64,000 nt of DNA, taken from Nitratidesulfovibrio sp. SRB-5 (GTDB taxonomy: Bacteria > Desulfobacterota > Desulfovibrionia > Desulfovibrionales > Desulfovibrionaceae). The stretch spans positions 248,001 to 312,000 of the forward strand of contig NZ_JAIOTY010000002.1 of NCBI RefSeq assembly GCF_019931275.1, written 5' to 3'. Below the pieces are notes generated by a model that saw only the letters and a list, made by a program, of their open reading frames with translations, searched no databases and was not told where the DNA came from. Made by a program: the position numbers and the translations under genes. Below are positions 4,602 to 18,831 of the stretch, one piece after another (positions within the stretch are counted from its first letter, which is position 1; every line of letters starts with the position of its first letter).

Positions 4602-4980
4602 GTCGCGTCCCGCTCCGTGGCGGCGGGTTGCGTGGCGGGCTGTGGTATGGCGTGGCGCGGCGTGCATGACGTTGTCCGTACCCGGGCGGCAAGGGCCCGC
4701 ATGATTCTGTTGCTGGTTGTGCCCGTTCCGGCGGCAACCGGTGCGGGGCGGCACGGGCGGCACCACGCCGTCCGTGCCCGAATGATAGCAAAACGGGGGC
4801 CAATGGCGGCAACCCACCGGATTTCAAGGTTTGGACCGGTGCGGGGCAGGTTAGTGAGAGCGGACCGAGATGTATATAATGACAAAATTGAACACAGCAT
4901 GAGTGTTTAGTGAGACAAAAACGTAAATAACAAGCTGGCCTCCGGGGCGAGCAAAGATGGAGTTCTGCCGAATATTCCGC
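4602..4980. other. Gene-free, locally AT-rich stretch
   Basis: Between the small membrane protein (-) and the aromatic leader (+). Bases ~4860-4980 are clearly lower in GC than the surrounding sequence, as expected for a divergent promoter region. No convincing gene, repeat or hairpin was seen. Confidence 0.5.
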
Positions 4981-5010
4981 TTGACAGCCTTTGCGAGGCG
5001 GGCGTAGGTA
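4981..5010 (+). promoter_or_regulatory. Candidate sigma-70 promoter of the aromatic operon
   Basis: A perfect -35 hexamer TTGACA (4981-4986) is followed after 18 bases by TAGGTA(T) (5005-5010) as a poor -10. Transcription would begin near 5017, about 37 bases before the aromatic-rich leader ORF, as expected for an attenuator. The -35 is strong; the -10 is weak, so the exact start is uncertain. Confidence 0.45.
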
Positions 5011-5053
5011 TCCAGAAACACCTGAAAACGGATAACGTCAGGACACCACGACA

Positions 5054-5158
5054 ATGCTTTCCACCTCCGCCACCTTCACCACTGCCTATCGTACCAACTA
5101 TTACTTTTGGTACTTTTTTAGCTATGGAGAAGCCCGTGGCCGCATGGAGCGTGCGTAA
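5054..5158 (+). CDS. Aromatic-amino-acid leader peptide (attenuation sensor)
   Basis: A 34-codon ORF with ATG at 5054 and TAA at 5156-5158, too short for usual gene calling. AGGA lies about ten bases upstream. In the middle are the codons Tyr-Tyr-Phe-Trp-Tyr-Phe-Phe-Ser-Tyr (5099-5125): eight of nine consecutive codons are aromatic and all three aromatic amino acids are used. The ORF precedes a strong hairpin with a T-tract, then the first gene of aromatic biosynthesis. This is the classic layout of a ribosome-mediated attenuator, with stalling at uncharged Tyr/Phe/Trp tRNA as the signal. The peptide itself need have no other function. The aromatic run and position are direct observations; the role is inference. 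Confidence 0.8.
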   Translation: MLSTSATFTTAYRTNYYFWYFFSYGEARGRMERA

Positions 5159-5235
5159 GCATCTGACGAAGGTGTAAACACACGAAGACTCAAGGGGCCG
5201 CGGGCGAAAAGCCGGCGGCCCCTTTTCTGTTTTTC
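5132..5235 (+). terminator. Attenuator: antiterminator and terminator stems of the aromatic operon
   Basis: The terminator hairpin is at 5194-5222 (8 bp, a G-G mismatch, then 3 bp, loop GAAAA), followed by the T-rich tract 5223-5235. Its 5' arm contains GGCCGCGGGC (5196-5205), which can instead pair with GCCCGTGGCC (5132-5141) inside the leader ORF just after the aromatic codons: ten pairs with one G-U. Ribosome stalling on the Tyr/Phe/Trp run would leave 5132-5141 free to form this antiterminator. A ribosome reaching the stop codon would cover it and allow termination. No convincing 1:2 pausing hairpin was found by eye. Confidence 0.75.
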
Positions 5236-5462
5236 CGGCGGTGCGTTACGCGCGGCGCGCCCCGGAAGCGTGTGACCCGAAGGACCGGGCAGGCCGCAAG
5301 GCCACCCCGGGTCCGACGCCTGACGCTGCCGCATCAGCAGTACCCGGTACGCGGGGGGATTGCCCCCCGGCGCCCGCGACCCGAAGGTCCGGGCGCAAGG
5401 CAAGGAAACACGATCACGGCCAGTTGCGCCGCAACCTTTCCGAAAGAACAGGGGAACATACG

Positions 5463-6260
5463 ATGCAAATCGGCAAAAGAATCAGGATGGAGCGCATTTT
5501 CAACCGAAAAACCGGGCGTGCCGTCATCGTGCCGCTGGATCACGGCGTGAGCGTGGGACCCATCTACGGCCTTGTGGACATGCGCGAAACCGTGAACCAG
5601 GTGGCCGAAGGCGGGGCGGACGCGGTGCTCATGCACAAGGGCCTGGTGCGCTGCGGCCACCGCGAGGGCGGCCGTGACGTGGGCCTGATCGTACACCTTT
5701 CCGCATCCACTTCCCTTTCCCCCCGGCCCAACGCCAAGACCCTGGTCGCCACCGTCGAAGACGCCCTGAAGCACGGTGCCGATGGCGTATCCGTGCACGT
5801 GAACCTTGGCGACGAGACCGAACGCGACATGCTGGCCGACCTGGGCCGCATGGCCACCGTGGCCAACGACTGGGGCATGCCGCTTCTGGCCATGATGTAC
5901 GCCCGTGGCCCCCGCATCAAGAACGAGTTCGACCCCGAAGTGGTGGCGCACGCCGCCCGCGTGGGCGTGGAACTGGGCGCCGACGTGGTCAAGGTGGCCT
6001 ACACCGGCGACATGGACAGCTTCGCCCACGTGGTTGCCTCCTGTTGCGTGCCCGTGGTCATCGCGGGCGGCCCCAAGCTGGATTCCACCCGGTCGTTCCT
6101 GCAAATGGTTCACGACGCGGTGCGCGCCGGCGCTGCCGGTCTTTCCGTGGGCCGCAACATCTTTCAGCACGAACGCACTCCCGCCCTCGTCAAGGCCCTG
6201 CGCGGCCTGGTGCACGAGGATTGGGATGTGGAGCAGGCCATGGCCCTCGTCGGCGAGTGA
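5463..6260 (+). CDS. 2-amino-3,7-dideoxy-D-threo-hept-6-ulosonate (ADH) synthase / class I aldolase of the archaeal-type shikimate entry
   Basis: 265 residues from ATG 5463, chosen because AGGGGAAC lies just upstream; the frame stays open further upstream but without a start context. It is a class I (Schiff-base) aldolase TIM barrel of the FBA/ADH-synthase family: [12 protein letters not shown] near the N-terminus, [23 protein letters not shown] carrying the probable Schiff-base lysine, VVIAGGPK, and a C-terminal [10 protein letters not shown] phosphate-binding loop. ADH synthase condenses a 6-deoxy-5-ketofructose phosphate donor with aspartate semialdehyde, replacing DAHP synthase. The next gene is DHQ synthase II, its obligate partner, which makes the pathway assignment firm. 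It is the first gene behind the aromatic attenuator. Confidence 0.88.
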
Positions 6261-6407
6261 GGAGTGCCGGGATTCAGGGCACTTTCGCCCTCTGGCTGCG
6301 TCAGGCCGCGCCTTTTACTCCGGTCACGTACGAGAAGAGTACGCTCCCTTCGTAAAATGCTTGCCTTCCTTGCCAGAGAACGAAATTGCCCTGAATCCCG
6401 ACACTCC
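6261..6407 (+). repeat. Stop-codon-associated hairpin element, copy 1
   Basis: The element begins on the base after the ADH synthase stop codon. Its outermost arms (6261-6281 and 6387-6407) pair over 21 positions with one mismatch. Inside lie a second stem CTCTGGC/GCCAGAG (6290-6296 with 6372-6378), the conserved TGCGTCAGGCCGCGC, an apical stem TTTTAC/GTAAAA around the conserved TACGAGAAGAGTACGCTCC, and CTTGCCTTCCTT. It shares this plan with five other copies in the window. It lies within the aromatic operon, between ADH synthase and DHQ synthase II. Confidence 0.85.
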
Positions 6408-6530
6408 TGAAGGCATGTGAAGTGATGCGCCGCGAAAGACAATAACATGCAGACTTATTTGCATTTTCTTCCGGTGCGACACGGCGGGGTAAAGAGCGGT
6501 TCGCCGCCATGACAAAAATGTGAGGGGCCG

Positions 6531-7502
6531 ATGCGGACCATTCTTTTCAAGAGCGTGCCTTTCGACAAGGGCCTGGTGACCCTGGCGCTGGAATCGGGCG
6601 TGGACGGCATCATCGTGCCGCGCGCGCAGGTGGATTCGGTGGCGACGCTGGCCCGGTGCCGGGTGCTGGCAGACGAGGACGTGGCGACCATCGCGCTGTC
6701 GGCCAAGGCCGACGAAGAGGACGCCGCCGCGCGTCTGGCGCGGGGCGAAACCGTGGTGCTGGCGCGCGGGTGGGAGATCATTCCGGTGGAAAATCTGTTG
6801 GCGCAGTCCGACGACGTGGCCGTGGAAGTGGCCGATCTTTCCGAGGCGCGCCTTGCGGCGGGCATTCTGGAGCGGGGCGTGGCCACCGTGGTGGTGCTGC
6901 CCGAAGGCGCAGGCGAGCTGAAGTCCATCGTGGCCGACCTCAAGCTGTCGCAGGGCTGCATGGACCTGGCCCCCGCCGTGGTCACGGCGGTGGAGAACGT
7001 GGGCCTTGGCCACCGGGTGTGCGTGGATACCATGTCCATGCTGCGCCGGGGGCAGGGCATGCTGGTGGGCAATTCCAGCGCGTTCACCTTTCTGGTGCAT
7101 GCCGAGACCGAGCACAACGAATACGTGGCCGCGCGCCCGTTCCGGATCAATGCCGGGGCCGTGCATGCCTACGCCCAGATGCCCGGTGACAGGACCACCT
7201 ATCTTGAGGAACTGCGCGCGGGCGACGAGGTGCTCATCGTCAGCGCCGACGGTTCCACCACAGTGGCCACCGTGGGCAGGCTGAAGGTGGAGGCGCGGCC
7301 CATGCTGCTGGTGCGCGCGAAAGTGGGCGACGTGGAGGGCGCGGTGTTCCTGCAGAATGCGGAAACCATCCGCCTGACCCGCCCGGACGGAAGCCCCGTG
7401 AGCGTGGTGAGCCTGAAGGAAGGCGACCAGATCCTGTGCCGCACCGATTGCGCGGGCCGCCACTTCGGCATGCGCATCAAGGAGGACATCAAGGAATGCT
7501 GA
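6531..7502 (+). CDS. 3-dehydroquinate synthase II (archaeal type)
   Basis: 323 residues; ATG at 6531 follows GAGGGGCCG. It matches the MJ1249-type DHQ synthase family over its full usual length: SGVDGIIV near the start, ADEEDAAA, the central GHRVCVDTMSMLRRGQGMLVGNSS, and the C-terminal VGRLKVEARPMLLVRA and GDQILCRTDCAGRHFGM. It oxidatively deaminates and cyclises the ADH synthase product to 3-dehydroquinate, so no classical aroB is needed. It follows ADH synthase with hairpin element copy 1 in the gap; pheA begins 34 bases later. Confidence 0.92.
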   Translation: MRTILFKSVPFDKGLVTLALESGVDGIIVPRAQVDSVATLARCRVLADEDVATIALSAKADEEDAAARLARGETVVLARGWEIIPVENLLAQSDDVAVEVADLSEARLAAGILERGVATVVVLPEGAGELKSIVADLKLSQGCMDLAPAVVTAVENVGLGHRVCVDTMSMLRRGQGMLVGNSSAFTFLVHAETEHNEYVAARPFRINAGAVHAYAQMPGDRTTYLEELRAGDEVLIVSADGSTTVATVGRLKVEARPMLLVRAKVGDVEGAVFLQNAETIRLTRPDGSPVSVVSLKEGDQILCRTDCAGRHFGMRIKEDIKEC

Positions 7503-7536
7503 TGCGCACCACGCTGCAACGCCGGAGGACGCGGCC

Positions 7537-8802
7537 ATGAGCCTCACCGACGACAAGGAATCCCACTGGCGGGGGGATCACGTTGCCGCCAGCGCCGCCA
7601 AGGTTCCCCAGGTCACGGACGACGGCGCGCCCCAGCCTGCGCAGCCCGCAGTCGCATCCGCAGTCACGTCCGCAGTCACATCCGGGGGCGCAGCCGACCC
7701 GGAAGCGGCCCTGGCCGGGCGGCTTGGCCAGATCCGCCACGAGATCGACGGGCTGGATTCCGACCTGCTGAACCTGCTGAACCGCCGCGCCTCGCTGAGT
7801 CTGGAGGTGGGGCGCATCAAGGCCGACGACGCGGGCATCGTGTTCAAGCCCTTTCGCGAGCGCGAGGTGCTGGAAAATCTCATGGCCGCCAACGGCGGGC
7901 CACTGCCCAACGAGCACCTGCGTTCCATCTGGCGCGAGATTCTTTCGTCCTCGCGCAGCCTGCAACGGCCCCAGAAGGTGGCCTACCTTGGGCCGGAGGG
8001 CACCTTTTCGTACTTCGCGGGCGTGGAATTTCTCGGCAAGGCCGTGGAATACATGCCGCACAAGGATCTGGACGGGGTGTTCCGCGCTGTGCACGACAGG
8101 CAGTGCGAGCTTGGCGTGGTGCCGCTGGAAAATTCGCTGCACGGCACCGTGGGCCAGAGCCTGGACCTGTTCCTGTCGCACGAGGTATTCATCCAGTCCG
8201 AGCTGTTCTGCCGCATCAGCCATTGCCTGCTGACCACGGAAACCAGCCTGGCCGACGTGACCACGGTGTACTCGCACCCGCAGCCGCTGGCCCAGTGCGG
8301 CGGCTGGCTGCGTCAGGCCCTGCCCGGGGCGCGGATCATCCCGGCGGATTCCACCGCCTCCGCCGCGCGCCGCGTGGTGGGCGAAAAGGGCGCGGCGGCC
8401 ATCGGGCACCGCAGTCTGGCCGCGCTGCTGGGGCTGAACATCCTTGCGCGCGGCATAGAGGACCAGCCGGACAACTGGACGCGCTTCGTGGTCATCGGCC
8501 CCGCCCCGGCGGGCCAGCCCGGCACGGACAAGACCTCCATGCTGTTCTCCGTGCCGGACAGGCCCGGCGCGCTGGCAGAGGTGCTGAACCTGCTGGCCCG
8601 CGAAGGCATCAACATGAAGAAGCTGGAGTCGCGGCCCCTGCGCGGCGAAAAGTGGAAATACGTGTTCTTCGTGGACGTGGAATGCGACCTTGGCAACGAG
8701 GACTATGGCCGGGTGGTGCATGAACTGCGCAGGCTGTGTCATACGTTGCGCATCCTCGGGAGCTACCCCGCCGGGCCGCAGCTGGACATGAGTCGAGATT
8801 GA
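7537..8802 (+). CDS. pheA: Bifunctional chorismate mutase/prephenate dehydratase (P-protein)
   Basis: 421 residues; ATG at 7537 after CGGAGGACGCGGCC. A ~60-residue Ala/Val/Ser-rich N-terminal extension precedes an AroQ-type chorismate mutase (about residues 62-145, with RLGQIRHEIDGLDSDLLNLLNRRA). Then comes the prephenate dehydratase domain (GPEGTFSY, VPLENSLHGTVG, NWTRFVVIG) and a C-terminal ACT domain (about 335-415) with LESRPLRGEKWKYVFFVD, the conserved ESRP phenylalanine-binding motif. The enzyme converts chorismate to phenylpyruvate and should be feedback-inhibited by Phe through the ACT domain. It is third in the aromatic operon; hairpin element copy 2 starts right after its stop. Confidence 0.95.
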   Translation: MSLTDDKESHWRGDHVAASAAKVPQVTDDGAPQPAQPAVASAVTSAVTSGGAADPEAALAGRLGQIRHEIDGLDSDLLNLLNRRASLSLEVGRIKADDAGIVFKPFREREVLENLMAANGGPLPNEHLRSIWREILSSSRSLQRPQKVAYLGPEGTFSYFAGVEFLGKAVEYMPHKDLDGVFRAVHDRQCELGVVPLENSLHGTVGQSLDLFLSHEVFIQSELFCRISHCLLTTETSLADVTTVYSHPQPLAQCGGWLRQALPGARIIPADSTASAARRVVGEKGAAAIGHRSLAALLGLNILARGIEDQPDNWTRFVVIGPAPAGQPGTDKTSMLFSVPDRPGALAEVLNLLAREGINMKKLESRPLRGEKWKYVFFVDVECDLGNEDYGRVVHELRRLCHTLRILGSYPAGPQLDMSRD

Positions 8803-8998
8803 CGCGGCGCGGCCTTTTGCCCTCTGGCAGACCGACCCAAAGGGCGCGAAGCGTGGCCGTTAGACGAGCTTGCGAGTCTTACGGCCATCGAGAGCAGAGC
8901 GTCAGGCGTCGCCTTTCCTTCGGGTCACGTACCGAAGAGTACGCTCCCCTCTTGAAAGGCTCGCCTTTCTTGCCAGAGAACAAAAAAACGCACCGCGC
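8803..8998 (+). repeat. Stop-codon-associated hairpin element, copy 2 (long variant)
   Basis: Starts immediately after the pheA stop codon. The basal stem is CTCTGGC/GCCAGAG, flanked by the usual CTTTTGCC and AACAAAA. The 3' half holds the conserved GCGTCAGGCGTCGC, an apical stem CTTTCC/GAAAGG, GTCACGTACCGAAGAGTACGC and CTCGCCTTTCTT. An extra ~60 bases beginning ACCGACCCAAAGGGCGCG is inserted, as in copy 4. The rest of the 432-base gap before aroA holds palindrome family B. Confidence 0.75.
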
Positions 8999-9173
8999 GT
9001 GCCCCGGCGGCGCTGGCAGGCGCTCTCCGGGTAAATGAGTTCGAGCCGGATCATCTGACAGGGTGCATCCGGGTTGCGTCTCCTGCCCCCAAATAAAAAG
9101 TTTAGGGGGAGCGGCAGCCGTCAGGCGGGCGCGCAGCGCGAGCCTTACGGATGGCGACAGCAAAGCTGGGGGG

Positions 9174-9215
9174 CCGGGGGAAGGAGACCCTTTCCCCAAG
9201 GGGCCCTTCCCCCGG
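9174..9215. repeat. GC-rich palindrome family B, copy 1
   Basis: Imperfect inverted repeat with arms like CCGGGGGAAGGAGACCC and GGGCCCTTCCCCCGG. About 75 bases upstream (9087-9111) lies the family's companion box, CCCCCAAAT...AAAAGTTTAGGGGGA. The same box-plus-palindrome arrangement is seen near 13735-13806 and 51313-51512. It ends 20 bases before the aroA start. Confidence 0.75.
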
Positions 9216-9234
9216 TACCTGCAAAGGAACTTTC

Positions 9235-10587
9235 ATGGAAACCAAGCGTGAAACCGTGACCGTGGCGGCCCCGCCGTCCAAGTCGGTGTCGCACCGCATG
9301 CTGATAGGGGCGGCGCTGGCCGCGGGTGATTCGGTGGTGGAACACGTGCTGGAAAGCCGCGACATCGAGCGCACGGCGGACATCTTGCGGGCGGCGGGCG
9401 CGCGCATTGAGCGCCAGGGCGACGGCAGGTTCGCGGTGTCGGGCGTGGCGGGCACGCCTGCGGGCGGGTTCGACGCGCCGGTATCGTGCGACGTGCACGA
9501 ATCGGGCACCACGTGCCGCCTGCTGACGGCGGTGCTGGCGGCGGGCAAGGGCCAGTTCCGCATCCACGGCGCGCCGCGGATGCACGAACGGCCCATCGGC
9601 GAACTGGTGGACGTGCTGCGCGGGCGCGGGGTGCGCGTTACCTATGAAGGCCGCGAAGGCTGCCCGCCCCTGCTCATCGATTCCGACGGCATGTCCGGCG
9701 GGTCGACGGCCATCGGCCTTGGCGAATCCAGCCAGTACCTGTCGGGCCTGCTGCTGGCCGCGCCGCTTACCAGCGGGCTGACCATCGAGGTTTCCGGCGA
9801 CAAGGTGGTCTCGTGGCCCTACGTGGCCCTGACCCTGCAGGCGCTGGAGGACTTCGGCATCGGCTTTCGCGTGGAAACGCGCGAGACCCCGCGCGGCAAG
9901 TGGCAGGCCGACGAATGGCGCACCCTGCGCGAAGTCCGTCCCGGCCTGGTGCGCTTCGTGGTGTCGCCGGGGGTGTACCGCGCGGGCAACTACCGGGTGG
10001 AGGGCGACTGGTCCAACGCCTCGTACTTTCTGGCTGCGGGGGCCGTGGGCCCGCGCCCGGTGCGCGTGGCGGGCTTGCGGGTGGATTCGTTGCAGGGCGA
10101 CCGGGCCATGCTGGACATCCTGGGCCGCATGGGCGCGCGCTTCGAGCGGGCCGACAACGGCGTGGTGGTGGCACCCTCCAGCCTGACCGGGGTGGAAGTG
10201 GACATGGGCCACTGCCCGGACCTGGTGCCCACGGTGGCGGCCACGGCGGCCTTTGCCCAGGGCGTGACCACCATCCGCAACGTGGCGCACCTGCGCATCA
10301 AGGAATGCGACCGGCTGTCCGCCCCGGCGGCGGAACTGCGCAAGGCCGGTGTGCGGGTGGAGGAACTGGACGACGGCCTCATCGTGCACGGTTCGCTGCG
10401 CAGCGGCGGCCCGGCCCCGGTTATTGACGAAAAAGTGATGCCATTTTTGTCATACGGAGACCATCGCATGGCCATGAGCCTTGCGCTTCTGGGCTTTGCC
10501 GGGGTACATGTGGTTCTGGACGACCCGGCCTGCGTGGCCAAGTCGTTCCCGCATTTCTGGAACGAGTGGGAAAAGGTGCGCGCATGA
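9235..10587 (+). CDS. aroA: 3-phosphoshikimate 1-carboxyvinyltransferase (EPSP synthase)
   Basis: 450 residues. The ATG at 9235 is preferred over an in-frame ATG at 9151 because it has a GCAAAGGAAC ribosome binding site and because the upstream codons fall inside palindrome family B. Conserved motifs: APPSKSVSHRM (residues ~11-21, PEP/S3P site), SGTTCRLL, GESSQYLSGLLLAAPL, and near the end HLRIKECDRL and YGDHRMAMSLALLGF. It transfers enolpyruvate from PEP to shikimate-3-phosphate. The stop overlaps the tyrA start (ATGA), so the two are translationally coupled. Confidence 0.96.
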   Translation: METKRETVTVAAPPSKSVSHRMLIGAALAAGDSVVEHVLESRDIERTADILRAAGARIERQGDGRFAVSGVAGTPAGGFDAPVSCDVHESGTTCRLLTAVLAAGKGQFRIHGAPRMHERPIGELVDVLRGRGVRVTYEGREGCPPLLIDSDGMSGGSTAIGLGESSQYLSGLLLAAPLTSGLTIEVSGDKVVSWPYVALTLQALEDFGIGFRVETRETPRGKWQADEWRTLREVRPGLVRFVVSPGVYRAGNYRVEGDWSNASYFLAAGAVGPRPVRVAGLRVDSLQGDRAMLDILGRMGARFERADNGVVVAPSSLTGVEVDMGHCPDLVPTVAATAAFAQGVTTIRNVAHLRIKECDRLSAPAAELRKAGVRVEELDDGLIVHGSLRSGGPAPVIDEKVMPFLSYGDHRMAMSLALLGFAGVHVVLDDPACVAKSFPHFWNEWEKVRA

Positions 10588-11375
10588 ACGCAGTGAAAAT
10601 CGCGCTGGTCGGCGCGGGGGGCCGCATGGGCCGCCTGTTCGCCGACAGGCTCTCCGCCGCGGGATACGCGGTGGGGGGCGTGGACCGTCCGCTGACGCAG
10701 GATGCCTTGCGTCATGCCGTGGACGGGGCCGCCGCCGTGCTGTTGTGCGTGCCCGTGGAAGTCATGGACGAGGTGCTGCGCCAGGTTGCCCCGCTGCTGA
10801 ACGGCATGCAGGTGCTGGCGGACATCACCTCCGTCAAGGTGCGCCCCATGCAGGTCATGGAGCGCCACTACGCGGGCCCCGTGGTGGGCACCCATCCGCT
10901 GTTCGGCCCGGTGCCGCCTGCGGGTGATCCTGCGGAGAACCTGCGCGTGGCCGTGACCCCCGGCGATGCGGCCCACGAAACGGACGTGGCGCTCATCGAG
11001 CGCGTGTTCGCCGACATGGGCTGCGTGCCCTTCCGCACCACGGCGGACGAGCATGACGAGGCCGCCGCCTGCATCCAGGGCCTCAACTTCATCACCAGCG
11101 TTGCCTACCTTGCCACGCTGGCCCACCGCGACGAGCTTACCCCCTTCATCACCCCCTCGTTCCGCCGCCGCCTCGACGCGGCGCGCAAGATGCTGACCGA
11201 GGACGCATCCCTCTTCGAAGGCATGTTCGAAGCCAATCCCCACAGCCAGACCGCTGTCCGCAGCTACCTGTCGTTCCTCAACTTCGCCGCCGCCGGCGAT
11301 GTGGACGTGCTGGTAGATCGCGCCCAGTGGTGGTGGCGTTCGCACACCGAAAGGGGAGGAGTGCGTCCGTCATAG
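10584..11375 (+). CDS. tyrA: Prephenate dehydrogenase, whose 3' end carries the trp attenuator's Trp codons
   Basis: 263 residues; ATG at 10584 overlaps the aroA TGA (ATGA). The N-terminal Rossmann motif is KIALVGAGGRMGRLF, followed by DITSVK, GTHPLFGP and a helical C-terminal dimerisation domain, as in TyrA dehydrogenases without a mutase domain. It makes 4-hydroxyphenylpyruvate for Tyr synthesis. The C-terminus is RAQWWWRSHTERGGVRPS: three consecutive TGG codons at 11328-11336 followed by 12 codons and a stop at 11373-11375. These Trp codons sit at the position of a trp leader peptide relative to the downstream terminator and trpE, so the end of the tyrA reading frame probably doubles as the sensor. 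Confidence 0.93.
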   Translation: MNAVKIALVGAGGRMGRLFADRLSAAGYAVGGVDRPLTQDALRHAVDGAAAVLLCVPVEVMDEVLRQVAPLLNGMQVLADITSVKVRPMQVMERHYAGPVVGTHPLFGPVPPAGDPAENLRVAVTPGDAAHETDVALIERVFADMGCVPFRTTADEHDEAAACIQGLNFITSVAYLATLAHRDELTPFITPSFRRRLDAARKMLTEDASLFEGMFEANPHSQTAVRSYLSFLNFAAAGDVDVLVDRAQWWWRSHTERGGVRPS

Positions 11376-11447
11376 CTGCACGCGAGTAGTAGAGTAACGG
11401 ACAAGGCAATAGTAGGCCGCGCTCCCGCCCCGGGAGCGCGGCTTTTT
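11328..11447 (+). promoter_or_regulatory. Tryptophan attenuator embedded in the tyrA 3' end
   Basis: The elements occur in the classical order. Trp codons TGG-TGG-TGG at 11328-11336. Segment 1 CGCAC (11341-11345) can pair with segment 2 GTGCG (11361-11365). Segment 2, GGAGTGCG (11358-11365) plus GGGG (11353-11356), can instead pair with segment 3, CGCGCTCC (11418-11425) plus CCCC (11428-11431), forming an antiterminator with one G-U pair. Segment 3 is the 5' arm of the terminator. A ribosome stalled on the Trp codons would mask segment 1 and favour 2:3; one finishing tyrA would cover segment 2 and favour termination. trpE starts at 11496. Confidence 0.75.
11416..11447 (+). terminator. Intrinsic terminator between tyrA and trpE
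   Basis: A perfect 12-bp stem (11416-11427 with 11431-11442), loop CCC, then TTTTT (11443-11447). It is the 3:4 hairpin of the proposed trp attenuator. Confidence 0.9.
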
Positions 11448-11495
11448 GTTTTCGATGCACCACTCACGGCACGCCGAACTTGAAGGAGAACCCAG

Positions 11496-13058
11496 ATGGA
11501 AATGCCCGAAATGCCCGCACAGGCCGAAGCCCCCGAAACGGCGAAGGCTCCCCAGGCTCCGGAAACCGCGCAAGCCCCGGCCAACGGCAACGGCTGCCCT
11601 TGCGCCACCACCGGTTCCGGGGACGATATCCCCGCGCTGCCCGAAGGCGGCGAGATCGTGCTGCGCCAGACGGGCCGCTGGCTGGAGGCCGACGTGGACA
11701 CCCCCATCAGCGTGTTCCTCGGCATGGTGGGGTCCGGGCAGGGCATCCTGCTGGAAAGCGCAGAGGTGGATGGCCGCTGGGGCCGGTACAGCGTCATCGC
11801 CTTCAACTTCCTGCTGCGTCTTGGCTGCCGCGACGGCAAGCTGGAAGTGGCCGTGCGCGACCCGCGCCTTGCCCCGCTGCGCAGGTTCGACGGCATGGGC
11901 TTCATTGAGGGCACCCGCGCGGTGATGCGCGCCCTGCGCATCGAGCCGGACGCGGCCTTTGCCGACCAGCCCCCCATCACCCGCGCCCTGTACGGCTACT
12001 TCGGCTACGGCGTGTCCGGGCTGTTCGAGCCCAAGCTGGCCAAGGTGCTGCCGACCTCGTCGGCGGAGGCCTGCCTGGCCCTGCCCGGCACCGTGGTGCT
12101 GTTCGACCACCTGTACAACCGGTTGTGCCAGCTTTCGCTCACCGACCTGCCCGGAGCCAGGGTGGACCGCAGCCAGGTGGACCGCACGCCGGAGCCGCCG
12201 GAAGTGGGCCCCGTGGTCAACGTGCCGGAACAGGCCGTGTACACCCGCGCCGTGGCCCGGGTGAAGGACATGATCCGTCAGGGCGAGGCCATCCAGGTGG
12301 TGCTGTCCACCCGCTTCCAGGCCTCGTTCAGCGGCGACCCGTTCACCCTGTACCGCCGCCTGCGCCGCATCAACCCATCGCCGTACATGTTCTTCATGCG
12401 GCTGCCCGGCGTCTCGCTGCTGGGGTCTTCGCCGGAAGTCATGGTGCGCTGCCGGGCCGACAAACTGCAGGTCAGCCCCATTGCGGGCACCCGCCCGCGC
12501 GGCACGGACGACGCCCACGACGCCGCACTGGCGCAGGAACTGCTGGAAGACCCCAAGGAACGCGCCGAGCACGTCATGCTGGTGGACCTTGGCCGCAACG
12601 ACCTTGGCCGCATCGCCGCGCCGGGCACTGTGCAGGTGGAACGGTTCATGGACGTGGAAAAGTTCTCGCACGTCATGCACCTGACCTCGCGCGTCACTGC
12701 CCAGATCGAGCCGGGCCGCGACGCGCTGGACGTGCTGGCCGCCACCTTCCCGGCGGGCACCGTCAGCGGCGCGCCCAAGGTGCGGGCCATGGAGATCATC
12801 TCCGAGGCGGAAGGCCTTGCGCGCGGCCCCTACGCCGGGGCCATCGGCTGGCTGGGGCTGGACCGGGGCAGCGTGAACCTGGACACGGGCATCACCATCC
12901 GCTCCCTGTGGGTGCGCGACGGGCAGGTGCACTGGCAGGCCGGCGCGGGCATCGTGTTCGATTCCGTGCCCGAGATGGAATGGAAGGAATGCAACAACAA
13001 GGCCGCCGTCATCCGCGCCGCAGTCACCGGAGGGGAATATGTTCCTGTTAATCGATAA
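11496..13058 (+). CDS. trpE: Anthranilate synthase component I
   Basis: 520 residues; ATG at 11496 after GAAGGAGAACCCAG. A ~50-residue Pro/Ala-rich extension precedes the usual domain. The Trp feedback-inhibition motif LLES is present (GILLESAEVDGRW, residues ~83-95). The chorismate-binding domain has AIQVVLSTRF, SPEVMVR, PIAGTRPRG, DLGRNDLGR, SGAPKVRAMEII and AGAIGWLGL. With TrpG it converts chorismate and glutamine to anthranilate. It overlaps trpG by 20 bases, and the trpG ribosome binding site GGAGGGG lies inside its 3' end. It is the first gene behind the Trp attenuator. Confidence 0.96.
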   Translation: MEMPEMPAQAEAPETAKAPQAPETAQAPANGNGCPCATTGSGDDIPALPEGGEIVLRQTGRWLEADVDTPISVFLGMVGSGQGILLESAEVDGRWGRYSVIAFNFLLRLGCRDGKLEVAVRDPRLAPLRRFDGMGFIEGTRAVMRALRIEPDAAFADQPPITRALYGYFGYGVSGLFEPKLAKVLPTSSAEACLALPGTVVLFDHLYNRLCQLSLTDLPGARVDRSQVDRTPEPPEVGPVVNVPEQAVYTRAVARVKDMIRQGEAIQVVLSTRFQASFSGDPFTLYRRLRRINPSPYMFFMRLPGVSLLGSSPEVMVRCRADKLQVSPIAGTRPRGTDDAHDAALAQELLEDPKERAEHVMLVDLGRNDLGRIAAPGTVQVERFMDVEKFSHVMHLTSRVTAQIEPGRDALDVLAATFPAGTVSGAPKVRAMEIISEAEGLARGPYAGAIGWLGLDRGSVNLDTGITIRSLWVRDGQVHWQAGAGIVFDSVPEMEWKECNNKAAVIRAAVTGGEYVPVNR

Positions 13059-13617
13059 CTACGACTCGTTCACCTTCAATCTGGTGCAGGCGTTCTACGG
13101 CCTCGGGCTGCATCCGGTGGTGGTCCGCAACGACGACCCCGCCGTGCCCGCCATGGCCGAAGACCCGGCGCTGGAAATGGTGTGCATCTCGCCTGGCCCC
13201 AGCCACCCCCGCAACGCGGGATTCTGCCTCGATTTCCTGTCGCGCCTGCCGCACCGCGTGCCCGTGCTGGGCGTGTGCCTGGGCCATCAGGTGCTGGGCC
13301 TGTTCGCCGGGGCCACCGTGGATGTGGGCCCGCGCATCATGCACGGCAAGACCTCGGACATCACCCACGACGGGCAGGGCCTGTTCCACGGCGTGCCCAG
13401 CCCCATGCAGGTGGGCCGCTACCACTCGCTCATCGTGCACGCCGAGGAACGCCCCGACCTGCTGGCCGTAACCGCCCGCGCCCCCGAAGGCGAGGTGATG
13501 GCCCTGCGCTACACCGACCGCCCGTGGGTGGGCGTGCAGTTTCACCCCGAATCCGTGCTGACCCCCGACGGCGTGCGCATGCTCGCCAACTTTCCCGCCC
13601 AGGTGGCGGGGAAGTAA
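13039..13617 (+). CDS. trpG: Anthranilate synthase component II (glutamine amidotransferase)
   Basis: 192 residues, the normal length for an unfused TrpG. Class I amidotransferase motifs: LLIDNYDSFTFNL at the start, SPGPSHP, the nucleophile loop VLGVCLGHQ (Cys ~76), and the His/Glu dyad in VGVQFHPESVLTP. It supplies ammonia to TrpE. The start is inside trpE (20-base overlap), implying coupled translation. A 215-base gap with a composite repeat separates it from trpD. Confidence 0.96.
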   Translation: MFLLIDNYDSFTFNLVQAFYGLGLHPVVVRNDDPAVPAMAEDPALEMVCISPGPSHPRNAGFCLDFLSRLPHRVPVLGVCLGHQVLGLFAGATVDVGPRIMHGKTSDITHDGQGLFHGVPSPMQVGRYHSLIVHAEERPDLLAVTARAPEGEVMALRYTDRPWVGVQFHPESVLTPDGVRMLANFPAQVAGK

Positions 13618-13618
13618 A

Positions 13619-13806
13619 AGCGGGGCTCCGCCCCGCGCCCCGCAAGGGGGCGGTGGCCCCCTTGACCCCTTGTGCGGGACCGGTTCGCACTACGTGCGAT
13701 CCGGTCCCGGCAGCAACCGCAACGGGCAACCAACCCCCAATCGAAAAGTTTGGGGGGATGGGGGTTCGGGGGAAGGGGACCCTTTCCAAAGGGTCCCTTC
13801 CCCCGG
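13619..13806. repeat. Composite intergenic repeat with three hairpins (includes palindrome family B copy 2)
   Basis: Three consecutive structures fill the trpG-trpD gap. The first is a GCGGGG/CCCCGC hairpin at ~13620-13637. The second (13676-13708) has 15-base arms GGGACCGG(T)TCGCAC and GTGCGA(T)CCGGTCCC around TAC. The third is the family B palindrome 13767-13806, with CGGGGGAAGGGGACCC arms. The family's companion box CCCCCAATCGAAAAGTTTGG lies before it. No T-tract follows any of them, so read-through into trpD is expected. Confidence 0.8.
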
Positions 13807-13832
13807 TGGCTCCCAGATTAAGGAGACAGCAA

Positions 13833-14849
13833 ATGCAGACCGCAACGTCTACCATACTGGAAACACTGGCCACGGGCATGGACCTTGCGCCGGAGCTGGC
13901 CGAGGCCGGGTTCTCGCGCCTGATGGACGGCGAGATGACCTGCGCGCAGGCGGGGTCGTTCCTGATGGGCCTGCGCATGAAGGGCGAGACCCCGCAGGAG
14001 CTCACCGAGGCGGTGCGCGCCGCGCTGGCCCGCGCCGTGCGGGTGACCGGCATTGACGGCCCCACCATCGACATCGTGGGCACCGGCGGTGATGGCCGCT
14101 CGTCGTTCAACTGCTCCACGGCCACGGCGCTGACCTTGGCGGGCATGGGCCACCGGGTGGTCAAGCACGGCAACCGCGCGGTGTCGTCCTCGTGCGGGGC
14201 GGCGGACGCGGTGGAGGGCCTGGGCCTGCCGCTGGAACTGGACCCGGAGGACGTGCGCGCGCTGGTGGCGCAGCGCAACTTCGCCTTCCTGTTCGCGCCG
14301 CGCTTTCACCCGGCGTTCCGCAACGTCATGCCCATCCGGCGCGAACTGGGCGTGCGCACCCTGTTCAACCTGCTGGGGCCGCTGCTCAACCCGGCCCGGC
14401 CCAGCCACATGCTGCTGGGCGTGGCCCGCGCCGAACTGCTGCCCCTGATGGCCCGCACCCTGCTGCTGACCGGCGTGCGCCGGGCGGCGGTGGTGCATGG
14501 CGCGGGCGGCTACGACGAACTGACACCCATGGGCCCCGCGCACATCATGCTGCTGGAGGGCGACGGCCAAGGCCACGGCACGCTGACGGAAATCAGCGTG
14601 GACCCGGCGGACTACGGCATCGCGCCCTGCACCCCGGAAGAACTGGCCGTGCCCGACCGCGACACCGCCGTGCGGGTGCTGCGCGAACTGCTGTCCGGCG
14701 GCGGCCCCGCCCCCATGCGCGACATGCTGGTGCTGAACGTGGGCATGGCCCTGCACCTGCTGGAGCCGGGGCTGGCCCTGCCCGACGCCATGGCCGCCGC
14801 GCGGCTGGCCCTTGCCGCCGGGGCAGGGGGGAAGGTGCTGCATGCTTGA
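13833..14849 (+). CDS. trpD: Anthranilate phosphoribosyltransferase
   Basis: 338 residues; ATG at 13833 after AAGGAGACAGCAA. PRPP and anthranilate motifs are intact: DIVGTGGDGRSSFNCSTATAL (PRPP loop, residues ~79-99), VVKHGNRAVSSSCGAADAVEGLG, FHPAFRNVMPIRRELGVRTLFN and LLGPLLNP. It joins anthranilate to PRPP. Its last bases overlap the trpC start by 8 bases. Confidence 0.96.
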   Translation: MQTATSTILETLATGMDLAPELAEAGFSRLMDGEMTCAQAGSFLMGLRMKGETPQELTEAVRAALARAVRVTGIDGPTIDIVGTGGDGRSSFNCSTATALTLAGMGHRVVKHGNRAVSSSCGAADAVEGLGLPLELDPEDVRALVAQRNFAFLFAPRFHPAFRNVMPIRRELGVRTLFNLLGPLLNPARPSHMLLGVARAELLPLMARTLLLTGVRRAAVVHGAGGYDELTPMGPAHIMLLEGDGQGHGTLTEISVDPADYGIAPCTPEELAVPDRDTAVRVLRELLSGGGPAPMRDMLVLNVGMALHLLEPGLALPDAMAAARLALAAGAGGKVLHA

Positions 14850-15807
14850 TCGTTTCCGCATCGCCAAGCAGCCGGAACTGGAACGGCTGCGCAAGCTGGC
14901 CGAGGCGGGCGGGATGCCCGCGCCGCTGGCGTCCGGGACAGGTGGCGGCACACCGCGCCCCGACTTCCTGCGGGCGCTGCGGGACCGCACCGGCTACCCC
15001 GATGCGCCGGTGGCGGTCATCGCGGAGTACAAGCGCGCCTCGCCCTCGCGCGGGGTCATCGAGACGGGCGTCTCGCCCGAGGATGCGGCCACGGCCTACG
15101 CGTCCGCCGGGGCCACGGCCATCTCGGTGCTGACCGAGGAGCAGTACTTCGGCGGCGACCTGGCCTATCTGGGGCGCATGGCCGGGGTGAATCCTGATGT
15201 TCCCCTGTTGCGCAAGGACTTCATCATGGACCCGTTGCAGGTGGCGGCCACGGCGGTCACCCCGGCGGCGGCGCTGCTGCTGATCGTGCGGCTGACGCCC
15301 GATGCGCGCACCCTGCGCGACCTGCGCGAGCAGGCCGAAACGCACGGCATGCACGCCGTGGTGGAGATCTTCGACGAGGCGGATCTGGCGCTGGCGCGCG
15401 AATCCGGCGCACGGATCATTCAGGTGAACAACCGCGATCTGGAAACCCTTGCCGTGGACCGCACCGCCTGTCTGCGACTGGGGCCGTTGCGCGCCCCCGG
15501 CGAGGTGTGGATTGCGGCCAGCGGCATCAGCGAGAACCGCCATCTGGCGGAAGCCGCCGCTGCCGGGTATGACGCGGCATTGGTGGGCACTGCGCTGATG
15601 GACGGCGGCGACCTCAAAGGCTCACTGATGCGGCTTCTGGGCCGCGAGGGCACTCCGTCCTTTCGTCCTCCGGCTGCGTCAGGCTGCGCCGCCTGCTCCG
15701 GTCACGTACGGTCGGAGTACGCTCCCTGCGCGTCGGGCTCGCCTTCCTTGCCGGAGAACGAAAATCCTGTCGTGCCAGATTGCAGCGAAACCGAAGGTGC
15801 GCAATGA
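14842..15807 (+). CDS. trpC: Indole-3-glycerol phosphate synthase with a repeat-derived C-terminal tail
   Basis: 321 residues from ATG 14842, which overlaps the trpD stop by 8 bases. The catalytic barrel covers residues ~1-268: VAVIAEYKRASPSRG, SVLTEEQYFGG, PLLRKDFIMDPLQV, VVEIFDEADL, IQVNNRDLETL, AASGIS and ALVGTALMDGGD. Normal enzymes end soon after this point. Here ~53 extra residues follow (from GTPSFRPPAASGCAA to the end), encoded by hairpin element copy 3 read in frame. The tail is Pro/Ser/Cys-rich and probably disordered; the catalytic core looks intact. The stop overlaps the trpF start (ATGA). Confidence 0.94.
   Translation: MLDRFRIAKQPELERLRKLAEAGGMPAPLASGTGGGTPRPDFLRALRDRTGYPDAPVAVIAEYKRASPSRGVIETGVSPEDAATAYASAGATAISVLTEEQYFGGDLAYLGRMAGVNPDVPLLRKDFIMDPLQVAATAVTPAAALLLIVRLTPDARTLRDLREQAETHGMHAVVEIFDEADLALARESGARIIQVNNRDLETLAVDRTACLRLGPLRAPGEVWIAASGISENRHLAEAAAAGYDAALVGTALMDGGDLKGSLMRLLGREGTPSFRPPAASGCAACSGHVRSEYAPCASGSPSLPENENPVVPDCSETEGAQ
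15649..15776 (+). repeat. Stop-codon-associated hairpin element, copy 3, inside the trpC reading frame
   Basis: Outer pairs GGCAC/GTGCC (15649-15653 with 15772-15776) and basal stem CTCCGGC/GCCGGAG (15668-15674 with 15750-15756) enclose TGCGTCAGGCTGCGC, GTCACGTACGGTCGGAGTACGCTCC and CTCGCCTTCCTT. Compared with copy 1 the basal stem has changed on both sides (T to C on one, A to G on the other), keeping the pair. Unlike the other copies it is not preceded by a stop codon: it extends trpC. Confidence 0.85.
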
Positions 15808-16481
15808 GCTCGTCAAAACCGGCCACCCTGTTCGACGCCCCCTCCCGCCTGCTGGTGAAGGTCTGCGGCCTGACCCGGCAGCAGGATGCGGACGCCTGCG
15901 CGGAGGCCGGGGTGGACCTGTGCGGGTTCATCTTCCATCCGGCCAGCCCGCGTGCGGTAACGCCCGCAGTGGCCGCCGGGCTGCACAGCCACGGCTTGGC
16001 GCGGGTGGGGGTGTTCGTGAAGCAGTCCGCCGACGAGGTGCTGGCCATCATGGACGCGACCCGGCTGGACTTTGCCCAGTTGCACGGCGGGCAGGATGCC
16101 GCCTTCTGCGACCGGGTGGGGCCGGAACGGGTCATCCGCGCGGCGTGGCCGCAACGCCATGCGGACCGCAGCGCGCTGCAAGCCGAACTGGCCGGGCTTG
16201 CCCCGCATGTGCACTGCTTTCTGCTGGATGCGGGCACCAGCGGCGGCGGTCACGGGGCCACCATGGATTGGTCCGCGCTGCGCGGGCTGGCCCCCGGCGC
16301 GCCGTGGCTGCTGGCGGGCGGGCTGACCCCGGACAACGTGGCTGGCGCCGTTGCCGCCTGTGGCGGCCATGACCCCGGCGCGCTGATCGGCGTTGATCTC
16401 AATTCGGGGGTGGAAAGCGCCCCCGGCCAGAAGGATGCAACCCGCGTGGCCGCCGCCCTTGCGGCGCTGCGCGCGGCATAG
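15804..16481 (+). CDS. trpF: Phosphoribosylanthranilate isomerase
   Basis: 225 residues with the ATG at 15804, chosen for the ATGA overlap with trpC and an AAGG just upstream; an in-frame ATG at 15780 is less likely because it lies by the repeat. Motifs: LVKVCGLTRQQDADAC (catalytic Cys), GFIFHPASPRAV, VGVFVKQ, DFAQLHGGQD, LLDAGTSGGGHGATMDW and LAGGLTPDNV. It performs the Amadori rearrangement between TrpD and TrpC steps. Confidence 0.95.
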   Translation: MSSSKPATLFDAPSRLLVKVCGLTRQQDADACAEAGVDLCGFIFHPASPRAVTPAVAAGLHSHGLARVGVFVKQSADEVLAIMDATRLDFAQLHGGQDAAFCDRVGPERVIRAAWPQRHADRSALQAELAGLAPHVHCFLLDAGTSGGGHGATMDWSALRGLAPGAPWLLAGGLTPDNVAGAVAACGGHDPGALIGVDLNSGVESAPGQKDATRVAAALAALRAA

Positions 16482-16520
16482 TCGATACCAACTGGCGCCC
16501 CGGCGCCAAAGGATACCACC

Positions 16521-17705
16521 ATGAAAAAAGGCTATTTCGGCGAGTTCGGCGGGCAGTTCGTGCCCGAGCTGCTCATGCCGCCGCTGCGGGAACTGGAAGC
16601 CGCCATGCGCGACATCCTGCCTTCGGACACGTTCCGGGCGGAACTGGACGACCTGCTGCGCAACTTCGCGGGGCGCGAAACCCCGCTCACGGCCTGCCCC
16701 ACGCTGTCGGCGGAACTGGGCGTGCACCTGTGGCTGAAGCGCGAAGACCTGCTGCACACCGGCGCGCACAAGGTCAACAACACCCTTGGGCAGGCCCTGC
16801 TGGCCAAGTACATGGGCAAGACCGCGCTGGTGGCGGAAACGGGGGCGGGCCAGCACGGCGTTGCCACGGCGGCTGCCGCCGCGCGCCTGGGCATGGAGTG
16901 CGTGATCTACATGGGAGCCACGGACGTGGTGCGCCAGGCCCCCAACGTCATGCGCATGAAGCTGCTGGGGGCCAAGGTGGTGCCCGTGCAGAGCGGCACC
17001 AAGACCCTGAAGGACGCCATCAACGAGGCCCTGCGCTACTGGATTGCCCAGCAGGATTCCACGCACTACTGCTTCGGCACGGCGGCGGGGCCGCACCCCT
17101 TCCCCACGCTGGTGCGCGACCTGCAATGCGTCATCGGGCGCGAAACCCGCGCCCAGATGCTGGAGCGCGTGGGCCGGCTGCCCGACATGGTGGTGGCTTG
17201 CGTGGGCGGCGGCTCCAACGCCATCGGCATGTTCCACCCGTTCATTGATGATGCCTCGGTGCGCATCGTGGGGGTGGAGGCGGCAGGCACCGGCGAGCCG
17301 GGCTGCTACAACTCCGCGCCCATCAACCTGGGCCGCCCCGGCGTGCTGCACGGCCAGATGACCATGCTGCTGCAGGACGCGGACGGCCAGATCGAGCCGT
17401 CGCACTCCGTGTCCGCCGGGCTGGACTACCCCGGCGTGGGGCCGGAGCACGCGCATCTGGGGGCCATTGGCCGTGCGGTGTACGGCATGGCCACCGACAG
17501 TCAGGCGCTGGAGGCCTTCCAGGCCCTGACCCGGCGCGAGGGCATCATCCCCGCGCTGGAATCGTCGCACGCGCTGGCGTGGGTGCTGTGCAACAGGCAA
17601 AAGCTACCTGCGGACGGACATGTGGTGGTCAACCTTTCGGGCCGGGGCGACAAGGACATGGAAATCGTGCGGGAAGTGCTGTTCCGCGAAGGAGAGCTGG
17701 CATGA
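16521..17705 (+). CDS. trpB: Tryptophan synthase beta chain
   Basis: 394 residues, standard length. ATG at 16521 after AAAGGATACCACC. PLP lysine motif: [16 protein letters not shown] (Lys ~87). Also [18 protein letters not shown] (phosphate loop) and [13 protein letters not shown]. It condenses indole with serine. The stop overlaps the trpA start (ATGA), consistent with a coupled alpha2beta2 complex. Confidence 0.97.
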
Positions 17706-18514
17706 GCGCGGCCATTCATACCGACATGAACGACATGCTGCCCGAGGCCCCGGTGTCGCGGCTGGAAGCCCGCGTGGCCGCCGCCAACGCGGCGGGGCGG
17801 CCCGCGCTGGTGCCCTTTCTGACGGCGGGTTTTCCCACGCTGGACCGCTTCTGGGAGGAAATGGACGGCCTTGATCGCGGCGGCGCGGACGTCATCGAAA
17901 TCGGCGTGCCCTTCTCCGACCCGGTGGCCGACGGCCCGGTGGTAGAGGCGGCATCGCTGCGGGCGCTGGAAAACGGCGTGACCCTGCGCTGGATACTGGA
18001 CGGCCTGAAGGCCCGCGCGGGCCGCTACGACGCCGAACTGGTGCTGATGGGCTACTACAACCCGTTCCTGCAATACGGGCTGGAAAATCTGGCGGCGGAC
18101 GCGGCGGCGGCGGGGGTGGCGGGCTTCATCGTGCCCGACCTGCCGCTGGAGGAAGACGCCGAGATGCGCGCGCTGCTGGCCGCGCGGGGCATCGACCTCA
18201 TCGCCCTAGTCGGCCCCAACACCAGCGAGGAACGCATGGCCGAATACGCCGCCGTGGCCTCCGGCTACGTGTACGTGGTGTCGGTGCTGGGCATCACCGG
18301 CGTGCGCGAGGGCCTGCCGCCGGAGGTGCCGCAGACGCTGGCCCGCGCCCGCAAGGCCTTCCGCCTGCCGCTGGCGCTGGGCTTCGGCATCAAGGAGCCG
18401 AAGCAGCTGGAAGGCTTCCCCGATTGGCCCGACGCCGTGGTGTTCGGCTCCGCGCTGTTGCGCCACATCGATGCGGGCAACAGCGCGGAATCGTTCCTGG
18501 CCGCGTGGAAGTAA
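17702..18514 (+). CDS. trpA: Tryptophan synthase alpha chain
   Basis: 270 residues; ATG at 17702 overlaps the trpB stop. Motifs: [13 protein letters not shown] (catalytic Glu region), [20 protein letters not shown] with the catalytic Asp, [20 protein letters not shown], and [15 protein letters not shown]. It cleaves indole-3-glycerol phosphate to indole. It is the last gene of the aro-trp cluster; a terminator follows about 110 bases on. Confidence 0.96.
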
Positions 18515-18621
18515 CGGGGCAGGACAGACGAGCGGGGCCGGGCCGGGTAGAGTAGGAGAGGATTGGACAGGATTGGGCCTTGCCCGCCGCGCCGCTGCGG
18601 CGCAACAGTATTCGCAATCAT

Positions 18622-18659
18622 CGGGACCGTCCTGCCCTGCGCGGGGGCGGTCCCGTTTT
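18622..18659 (+). terminator. Terminator of the trp operon
   Basis: Hairpin with arms CGGGACCG and CGGTCCCG (18622-18629 with 18648-18655) and a GC-rich pairable interior, followed by TTTT (18656-18659). The remainder of the 317-base gap between trpA and icd contains only a TTGACA at 18658-18663 that could be an icd -35, with a poor TACCGG 17 bases on. Confidence 0.8.
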
Positions 18660-18831
18660 GACAAAATCCGCCAAACCGGCTACCGGAACTGACCCCCAAG
18701 GGTACCCGGATCCCACCGGAAGCACGTGATACAAGGCCGGGCGGCGTGCCGTCCGGCCGCTTTTCGGCAGCACGACATCAGCACGACAGTATGGCCCCGC
18801 CCCGGCGGGGCCTGCGCAAAGGAGCGCCTCC

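Follow-up and report, generated by a model that had tools for sequence, protein, structure and literature searches.

The 3' end of tyrA as a probable ribosome-mediated attenuator of the downstream trp genes in Desulfovibrionia

In the window, the whole 64,000-nucleotide stretch of Nitratidesulfovibrio-like DNA analysed here, the prephenate dehydrogenase gene tyrA ends in a run of Trp codons and is followed by a terminator hairpin and by trpE. This raises the question of whether, in sulfate reducers of the Desulfovibrio group, the last codons of an enzyme gene double as the leader of a trp attenuator, as an earlier note made from the letters of the window had proposed.

Candidate attenuator parts at the end of tyrA

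The TyrA encoded in the window is 98–99% identical to those of the N. liaohensis and N. oxamicus loci. Its gene belongs to a single run on the plus strand, which continues past trpE with more trp genes (all gene names 3' of trpE are putative and come from a reading of the ORFs only):

5463..10587, plus strand: aro genes between the two leaders, that is, the upstream leader of the last section and the end of tyrA (ORFs; NCBIfam and Pfam profile matches)
5463–6260, plus strand: DeoC/LacD-family aldolase
6531–7502, plus strand: 3-dehydroquinate synthase II
7537–8802, plus strand: chorismate mutase-prephenate dehydratase
within 9151–10587, plus strand: aroA
10593..11375, plus strand: tyrA, prephenate dehydrogenase, full-length, the gene that would double as leader ORF (ORF; Pfam PDH_N above cut-off)
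11496..13058, plus strand: trpE, anthranilate synthase component I, first gene past the putative attenuator (ORF; Pfam Chorismate_bind and Anth_synt_I_N above cut-off)

tyrA also matched the NCBIfam prephenate dehydrogenase models, in every case below the cut-off, and has an alternative in-frame GTG start at 10566. For trpE, whose ATG (11496) is preceded by GGAG, the best NCBIfam model was trpE, with a score below the cut-off. The C-terminus of TyrA reads QWWWRSHTERGGVRPS, directly before the stop codon TAG at 11373–11375, and the following parts of a candidate attenuator were located at this end of the gene and in the spacer behind it:

11328–11336, plus strand: control codons TGG TGG TGG (Trp-Trp-Trp), TGGTGGTGG, in frame in tyrA, the first base 45 bases 5' of the stop codon
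11353–11365, plus strand: segment 2, GGGGAGGAGTGCG, 5' strand of the antiterminator, G-rich, inside tyrA as the codons for R-G-G-V-R
11365..11402, plus strand: local hairpin GTCCGT...ACGGAC spanning the stop codon (folds of the window)
11373..11375, plus strand: tyrA stop codon TAG, where a ribosome would cover segment 2 (assumed footprint)
11415..11431, plus strand: segment 3, comprising the terminator's 5' arm and loop, with which segment 2 would pair in the alternative fold (folds; swap test)
11431..11443, plus strand: segment 4, 3' arm of the terminator (scan and fold)
11443..11447, plus strand: T5 tract of the intrinsic terminator

The coordinates and letters that the earlier note gave for the WWW codons, the G-rich segment, the terminator with T5 and trpE were all confirmed. 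The perfect 12-bp 3:4 terminator that it described is GCCGCGCTCCCG-CCC-CGGGAGCGCGGC (11416–11442; 12 perfect pairs, 13 in the fold and 14 in the scan), followed by T5. The terminator stretch folded at –28.7 kcal/mol (z –4.93) and the stretch from segment 2 to segment 3 (11353–11432) at –37.5 kcal/mol (z –4.37), and in both cases none of 200 shuffles was as good. The longest helix run of segment 2 is 11358–11365; the hairpin 11365..11402 joins segments 2 and 3 in the fold and is not conserved in other genera. Sites resembling a terminator are no rarity in 4800–18800 (7 found, 8.2 expected from shuffles); the one between tyrA and trpE has 14 pairs and the other six at most 9. The scan matched a minus-strand 7-pair all-GC hairpin with a T run just past the second trp gene (13636–13620), which is within chance expectation.

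The TGG triple alone is no proof, because TGGTGGTGG is common as DNA in the window (13 matches, 1.25 expected). The pattern TGGTGGTGG-N10-22-GGGGAGGAG occurs once genome-wide, at the end of tyrA, and since it was derived from this very site, its uniqueness is no independent test. Compared with 100 letter shuffles of its own leader, the segment 2/3 duplex of the window gave p = 0.10; because this misses the 5% level, the case for the pairing rests on the relatives. In the fold of the whole leader the terminator state was more stable even with segment 2 free, and in a fold with segment 4 not yet transcribed the antiterminator formed, indicating that antitermination would have to be kinetic. An Rfam scan of 8500–14000 with E up to 1 returned five matches (four microRNA models and one plant-virus promoter hairpin), none at the gathering score, and neither a trp leader nor a T-box. 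TrpR (PF01371) was absent from the genome in a search whose control was positive in 2 of the 14 named genomes.

We infer ribosome stalling, termination or antitermination in the cell and the direction of the response as follows. With ample charged tRNA-Trp, the ribosome finishing TyrA would clear the three UGG codons, reach the stop and cover segment 2, so that segments 3 and 4 would pair, the terminator would form and RNA polymerase would halt before trpE. With charged tRNA-Trp scarce, the ribosome would wait on the UGG run with its leading edge just short of segment 2; the free segment 2 would pair with segment 3, no terminator would form, and the genes from trpE onward would be transcribed.

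Pairing and spacing in relatives of the window

The census comprised 262 tyrA loci of the class Desulfovibrionia among the matches listed, of which 209 were distinct after removal of those identical over 300 nt around the stop, and is a sample of the class. With tyrA called linked when a trpE match begins at most 1 kb behind it (a limit of our choice), 137 distinct loci were linked to trpE, 68 had no trpE behind tyrA, and 4 lay on contigs that end too early and were set to 'unknown' and counted in neither class. A terminator was found by script in 100 of the 137 linked loci, and consecutive TGG codons numbered three or four in 99 of these and two in one. The 37 linked loci without a scripted terminator divide into 23 with two TGG, 13 with three and one with none; in 14 of those 23 the trpE match starts 5–8 nt past the tyrA stop. 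The 68 unlinked loci have three consecutive TGG (55 loci), two (6), one (5) or none (2). None of them scored as a full attenuator, and 13 of the 100 linked terminator loci, the window's own included (p 0.10), missed the shuffle threshold of p ≤ 0.05. Among representatives, the G-rich motif was present at +9..+32 of the Trp run in 46 of 51 with a terminator, 5 of 20 linked without one and 6 of 42 unlinked; the tyrA stop fell at +6..+36 after the Trp run in 51 of 51, 13 of 20 and 31 of 42, respectively. These counts are left as printed with L295 scored as linked without a terminator, though its terminator, G-rich segment and trpE are visible. L091, scored as unlinked, overlaps trpE by eye, and in a few unlinked rows (L070, L079, L094) the tail is long or looks frameshifted.

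Some individual loci deserve mention in their own right. Four consecutive Trp codons end tyrA in some order-level relatives (L040, L042, L043, L045 and L130), and L043 has an extra TGG at the start of the G-rich segment. In L022, L106, L114, L124 and L129, the last three of which are Solidesulfovibrio, the Trp run has two residues (WW), a terminator is absent, and the trpE match begins 5 nt past the tyrA stop; these loci keep the synteny but not the attenuator. L062 lies on a contig labelled Oscillospiraceae (Bacillota), its tyrA groups among Desulfovibrio, and it is most likely a misbinned MAG contig.

For the swap test we took 51 linked representatives with a terminator, whose tyrA genes share less than 80% identity in their final 400 nt, and paired the leader segment of each either with its own terminator's 5' arm and loop or with those of the other 50. 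Three or more consecutive Trp codons were present in 50 of these 51 divergent loci with tyrA, terminator and trpE. The segment 2/segment 3 duplex had a mean of –23.8 kcal/mol for cognate and –17.8 kcal/mol for non-cognate pairs (n = 51). The cognate duplex beat at least 90% of the non-cognates in 36 of the 51 representatives and at least half of them in 50, and its shuffle p was ≤ 0.05 in 43. The helix core has 49 distinct sequences among the 51 loci, for example GGGGTGCGG with CCGCACCCC, GGGACGCGG with CCGCGTCCC, and GAGAAGTGC with GCACTTCTC. That segment 2 and the terminator arm vary in step between species is covariation read without an alignment, and it upholds the 2:3 antiterminator of the earlier note, which had named covariation as a check. 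Six unlinked representatives with some terminator, a set that included the miscalled L295, gave no cognate duplex better than 90% of foreign pairs and two better than 95% of shuffles.

The core starts at a median of 17 nt past the Trp run (IQR 15–19, range 11–30, sd 3.1; n = 51). Relative to the tyrA stop, which itself lies +6 to +36 past the Trp run, the core start is scattered (sd 8.5), so that in the 51 loci the core is inside the gene in 29, straddles the stop in 5 and lies beyond it in 17. The steady distance of the core from the Trp codons and its scattered distance from the stop therefore indicate that it is the RNA that is constrained, with the Trp codons as the reference point. Many TyrA tails contain Gly-Gly, which seems to be a side effect of GGNGGN being translated where it falls before the stop. 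With a ribosome footprint assumed from generally known sizes, its limits chosen by us, a ribosome with the last Trp codon in the A site leaves the core free in 50 of the 51 loci, and a ribosome at the stop covers it in all 51. The terminator starts at a median of 29 nt past the tyrA stop (range 5–50), and the nearest terminators fall short of the >20 bp noted for this spacing in amino-acid attenuators in an excerpt of PMC4824070.

The 1:2 pairing claimed by the earlier note exists in weak form in the window (11337–11413; z –1.68, 9 of 200 shuffles equally good) but is not conserved in the relatives. The logic of such a hairpin is that of textbook trp attenuation. In an earlier set of 49 linked representatives, drawn with a stricter terminator finder and used for the 1:2, spacer-hairpin and unlinked-pairing tests (in the last of which L295 stood among the unlinked), no conserved 1:2 hairpin was found (cognate –9.4, non-cognate –9.6, shuffled –9.8), only 4 of the 49 cognates beating 90% of the non-cognates. 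Nor was a conserved spacer hairpin found in these 49 between segment 2 and the terminator (mean z –0.24; z ≤ –2 in 2 of 49). The lack of a conserved 1:2 or pause hairpin counts against an attenuator: a ribosome ending a 260-codon gene must stay near the polymerase, and according to the excerpt of PMC1183508, hypersensitive attenuation strictly requires RNA polymerase and ribosome to be synchronised.

WWW in TyrA, relocated trpE and the rival readings

The earlier note had expected WWW only where trpE follows, and had taken its presence regardless of trpE as a refutation. For WWW alone this expectation failed: unlinked TyrA mostly keeps the three Trp codons (55 of 68), but seldom the G-rich segment (6 of 42 representatives). 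The triplet is present in TyrA even where the RNA parts are missing, perhaps also for the sake of the protein; either a protein role or slow decay may account for this. In an AlphaFold2 model of TyrA (mean pLDDT 91.6), WWW (W246–W248) lies within the last helix (237–252), and the tail encoded by segment 2 (residues 251–260) has a mean pLDDT of 57, that is, low confidence. If WWW mattered only to the protein, where it would sit at the end of the last helix, and the hairpin were nothing more than a terminator or polarity site separating the aro half from the trp half, both the retention of WWW in unlinked genes and its place in the model would be accounted for, and an independent-pairs tree test of the Trp run against the attenuator, not significant with 7 pairs (too few to reach significance, hence of little power), would agree. 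This reading accounts neither for segment 2, which co-varies with the terminator arm and keeps a steady distance from WWW whether it lies before or past the stop, nor for the standalone WW or WWW leaders before trpE elsewhere. In addition, WWW is absent from the last 60 residues in 25 of 25 TyrA of other classes of the phylum (L163–L187; the best 25 of 110 genomes with a match). We therefore hold a protein-only role to be improbable. Behind tyrA in these 25 outgroup loci no trpE was seen, only 19 nt being available there in L177.

A quick tree was built from 116 of the 209 rows, with a 74% identity cut and with short or anchorless rows dropped; L295 was set to terminator by hand in the tree test. 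This tree places 40 of the 45 unlinked rows together in a single clade (SH-aLRT 95), which forms an unresolved fork with two attenuator-rich groups, the root of the order being a trichotomy. Since the unlinked clade joins two attenuator-rich groups, loss or relocation is the simpler reading, and an embedded leader first with a standalone one later appears the more parsimonious order of events.

We sought trpE in 28 selected genomes that were unlinked, likely unlinked or of unread linkage. Fifteen belong to one genus (g42), whose first three members were unlinked; the rest were chosen on trpE unseen behind tyrA or linkage unread, and the selection also includes one more genome of that genus with a weak tyrA match. 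trpE was found in 24 and not in 4, and no tyrA was found near the 24 separate trpE loci (about 1.5 kb to the left and right, or as far as the contig reached). In 21 of the 24, trpE is preceded by a short leader ORF encoding WW or WWW and by a hairpin with a T run, examples of the leader being MNVFSNTISNSFKGWWWRIQLRGGDVRA and MTFSCSIASYCQNIWWWRIYDAGGGVLFV, each ending at a stop codon. Nineteen of these were called by script and two by eye (L189 and L194, which share one leader sequence and in which the region was cut at the trpE match in the script). The three remaining loci are L198, where no more than 184 nt of upstream sequence is available, L206, with a single Trp, and L203, in which no leader was found. 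In 21 distinct scripted leaders the pairing core starts a median of 16 nt past the Trp run (12–25), and 16 of the 21 reached p ≤ 0.05. Standalone leaders with similar spacing thus show independently that Trp codons at this distance are a trpE signal. In L209 (G037) and L211 (G024), two tandem Trp leader ORFs, each with its own hairpin and T run, lie before one trpE.

An attenuator could also couple the two halves without sensing Trp, gauging tyrA translation or general translation speed, with the Trp codons incidental; the E. coli rph–pyrE attenuator, tied to translation of a full upstream gene in the excerpt of PMC2784333, lends this some plausibility. Against it, the steady Trp-codon distance and the Trp-rich standalone leaders indicate tRNA-Trp, and we consider it less probable still than a protein-only role. 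A fixed end of the aro transcript at the terminator, with trpE served by a separate promoter in or past tyrA, is scarcely credible, even with several hundred bases between tyrA and trpE in some relatives: no sigma-70-like site was found near the junction (a scan of 4800–18800 gave one, at 14520, with 0.9 expected, which is weak evidence), and a conserved antiterminator would be useless.

The swap test, the Trp-codon spacing, the lack of full attenuators among the 68 unlinked loci and the standalone leaders bear out, at the level of sequence, the earlier proposal that the tyrA end is built as a trp attenuator leader. With its codons, segments, alternative pairings and spacing present, and absent or relocated where trpE lies elsewhere, the 3' end of tyrA very probably acts as a ribosome-mediated transcription attenuator for the downstream trp genes.

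Two candidate leaders in series and comparison with known systems

A second, classical-looking putative attenuator of the same supraoperon occupies 5054–5234 of the window:

5054..5158, plus strand: Phe/Tyr-rich leader peptide MLSTSATFTTAYRTNYYFWYFFSYGEARGRMERA, ending at a stop codon, ahead of the aro-trp supraoperon (ORF)
5194..5222, plus strand: GC-rich terminator hairpin of the upstream leader, then T-rich TTTTCTGTTTTT (folds)

An aromatic-rich leader ORF precedes the homologous first gene in 27 of 30 loci examined, 8 of them from the window's genus; more copies exist. These 30 are copies of the first gene whether or not it heads an aro-trp run, and the survey took the best ORF by script, with at least 5 aromatic residues in 10 and no shuffle control. 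In this arrangement Phe/Tyr would control aro-pheA-tyrA, the trp genes would respond to Trp as well, and the layout implies a putative mechanical link of Tyr-branch synthesis to expression of the trp operon. Whether the scheme holds order-wide is, in our estimate, an even question: two ribosome-sensing attenuators would lie in series on one transcript, the second sensed by the 3' end of tyrA without a leader peptide of its own, and once trpE had become separated from tyrA in the lineage of Desulfovibrio sensu stricto, the sensor would have been rebuilt as, or cut free into, a short trpL peptide, with WWW left in TyrA as a relic or a protein feature.

If the attenuator reading is correct, amino-acid attenuation can do without a leader peptide of its own, one housekeeping gene can serve at once as message for an enzyme and as sensor, and the sensing parts are set by distance from the codons, not from the stop. 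Both forms of one attenuator would then be seen in one system, along with the transition linking the tail of an enzyme to a leader peptide. Attenuator searches that take short ORFs as their starting point would miss such an arrangement. The order offers natural experiments in its embedded leaders, standalone leaders and losses, and in segment 2 inside or outside the gene, and poses the problem of what maintains coupling when the ribosome nears the end of a long gene and no conserved pause hairpin is there.

The aroA'-aroB'-pheA-aroF-tyrA-[trp] supraoperon of D. vulgaris has the same gene order as the window, in the excerpt of PMC1173090. Table 7 in that excerpt lists, from Merino's database, a putative attenuator at the front of the supraoperon; none is marked there in the tyrA–trp interval, and the excerpt does not describe tyrA as a leader. 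Our literature search found no report of a trp attenuator inside tyrA or with an enzyme gene as leader; subscription journals lie mostly outside its coverage, and an earlier mention is possible.

Like the trpL leader of E. coli trpEDCBA, the tyrA end has tandem Trp control codons, an antiterminator competing with a terminator, and ribosome position as the predicted switch (for the WW motif of trpL, see the excerpt of PMC7755916; for the I–IV scheme, that of PMC1183508). It differs from trpL in having no dedicated leader peptide, the leader ORF being the whole enzyme gene, in lacking a conserved I:II hairpin, and in its position between two halves of a supraoperon. No short dedicated leader peptide was found at tyrA–trpE, and standalone leaders occur only where trpE lies apart. 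The trp attenuators of Corynebacterium and Streptomyces resemble the tyrA end in their leaders with double or triple UGG, GC-rich terminator and poly-U, but have separate leader peptides, as described in the excerpt of PMC1262725.

The nearest architectural precedent is E. coli rph–pyrE. To our knowledge, it has no amino-acid control codons. As predicted for tyrA–trpE, termination before the next gene is linked there to translation of the last part of a complete upstream gene, and the distance from stop to attenuator matters (excerpt of PMC2784333); the signal, however, is the pyrimidine (UTP) supply, acting through transcription–translation coupling, whereas at tyrA–trpE the Trp codons lie at a steady distance and an antiterminator competes with the terminator. 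In Chlamydia trachomatis YtgCR, a Trp triplet within a full-size protein gene serves as Trp sensor, as tyrA would (excerpt of PMC7755916). There, stalling promotes termination inside the gene and acts in trans via a repressor, whereas at tyrA it would prevent termination in cis. By analogy, the tyrA attenuator would function like trpL, is arranged like rph–pyrE, and would share its in-protein WWW sensor with YtgCR.
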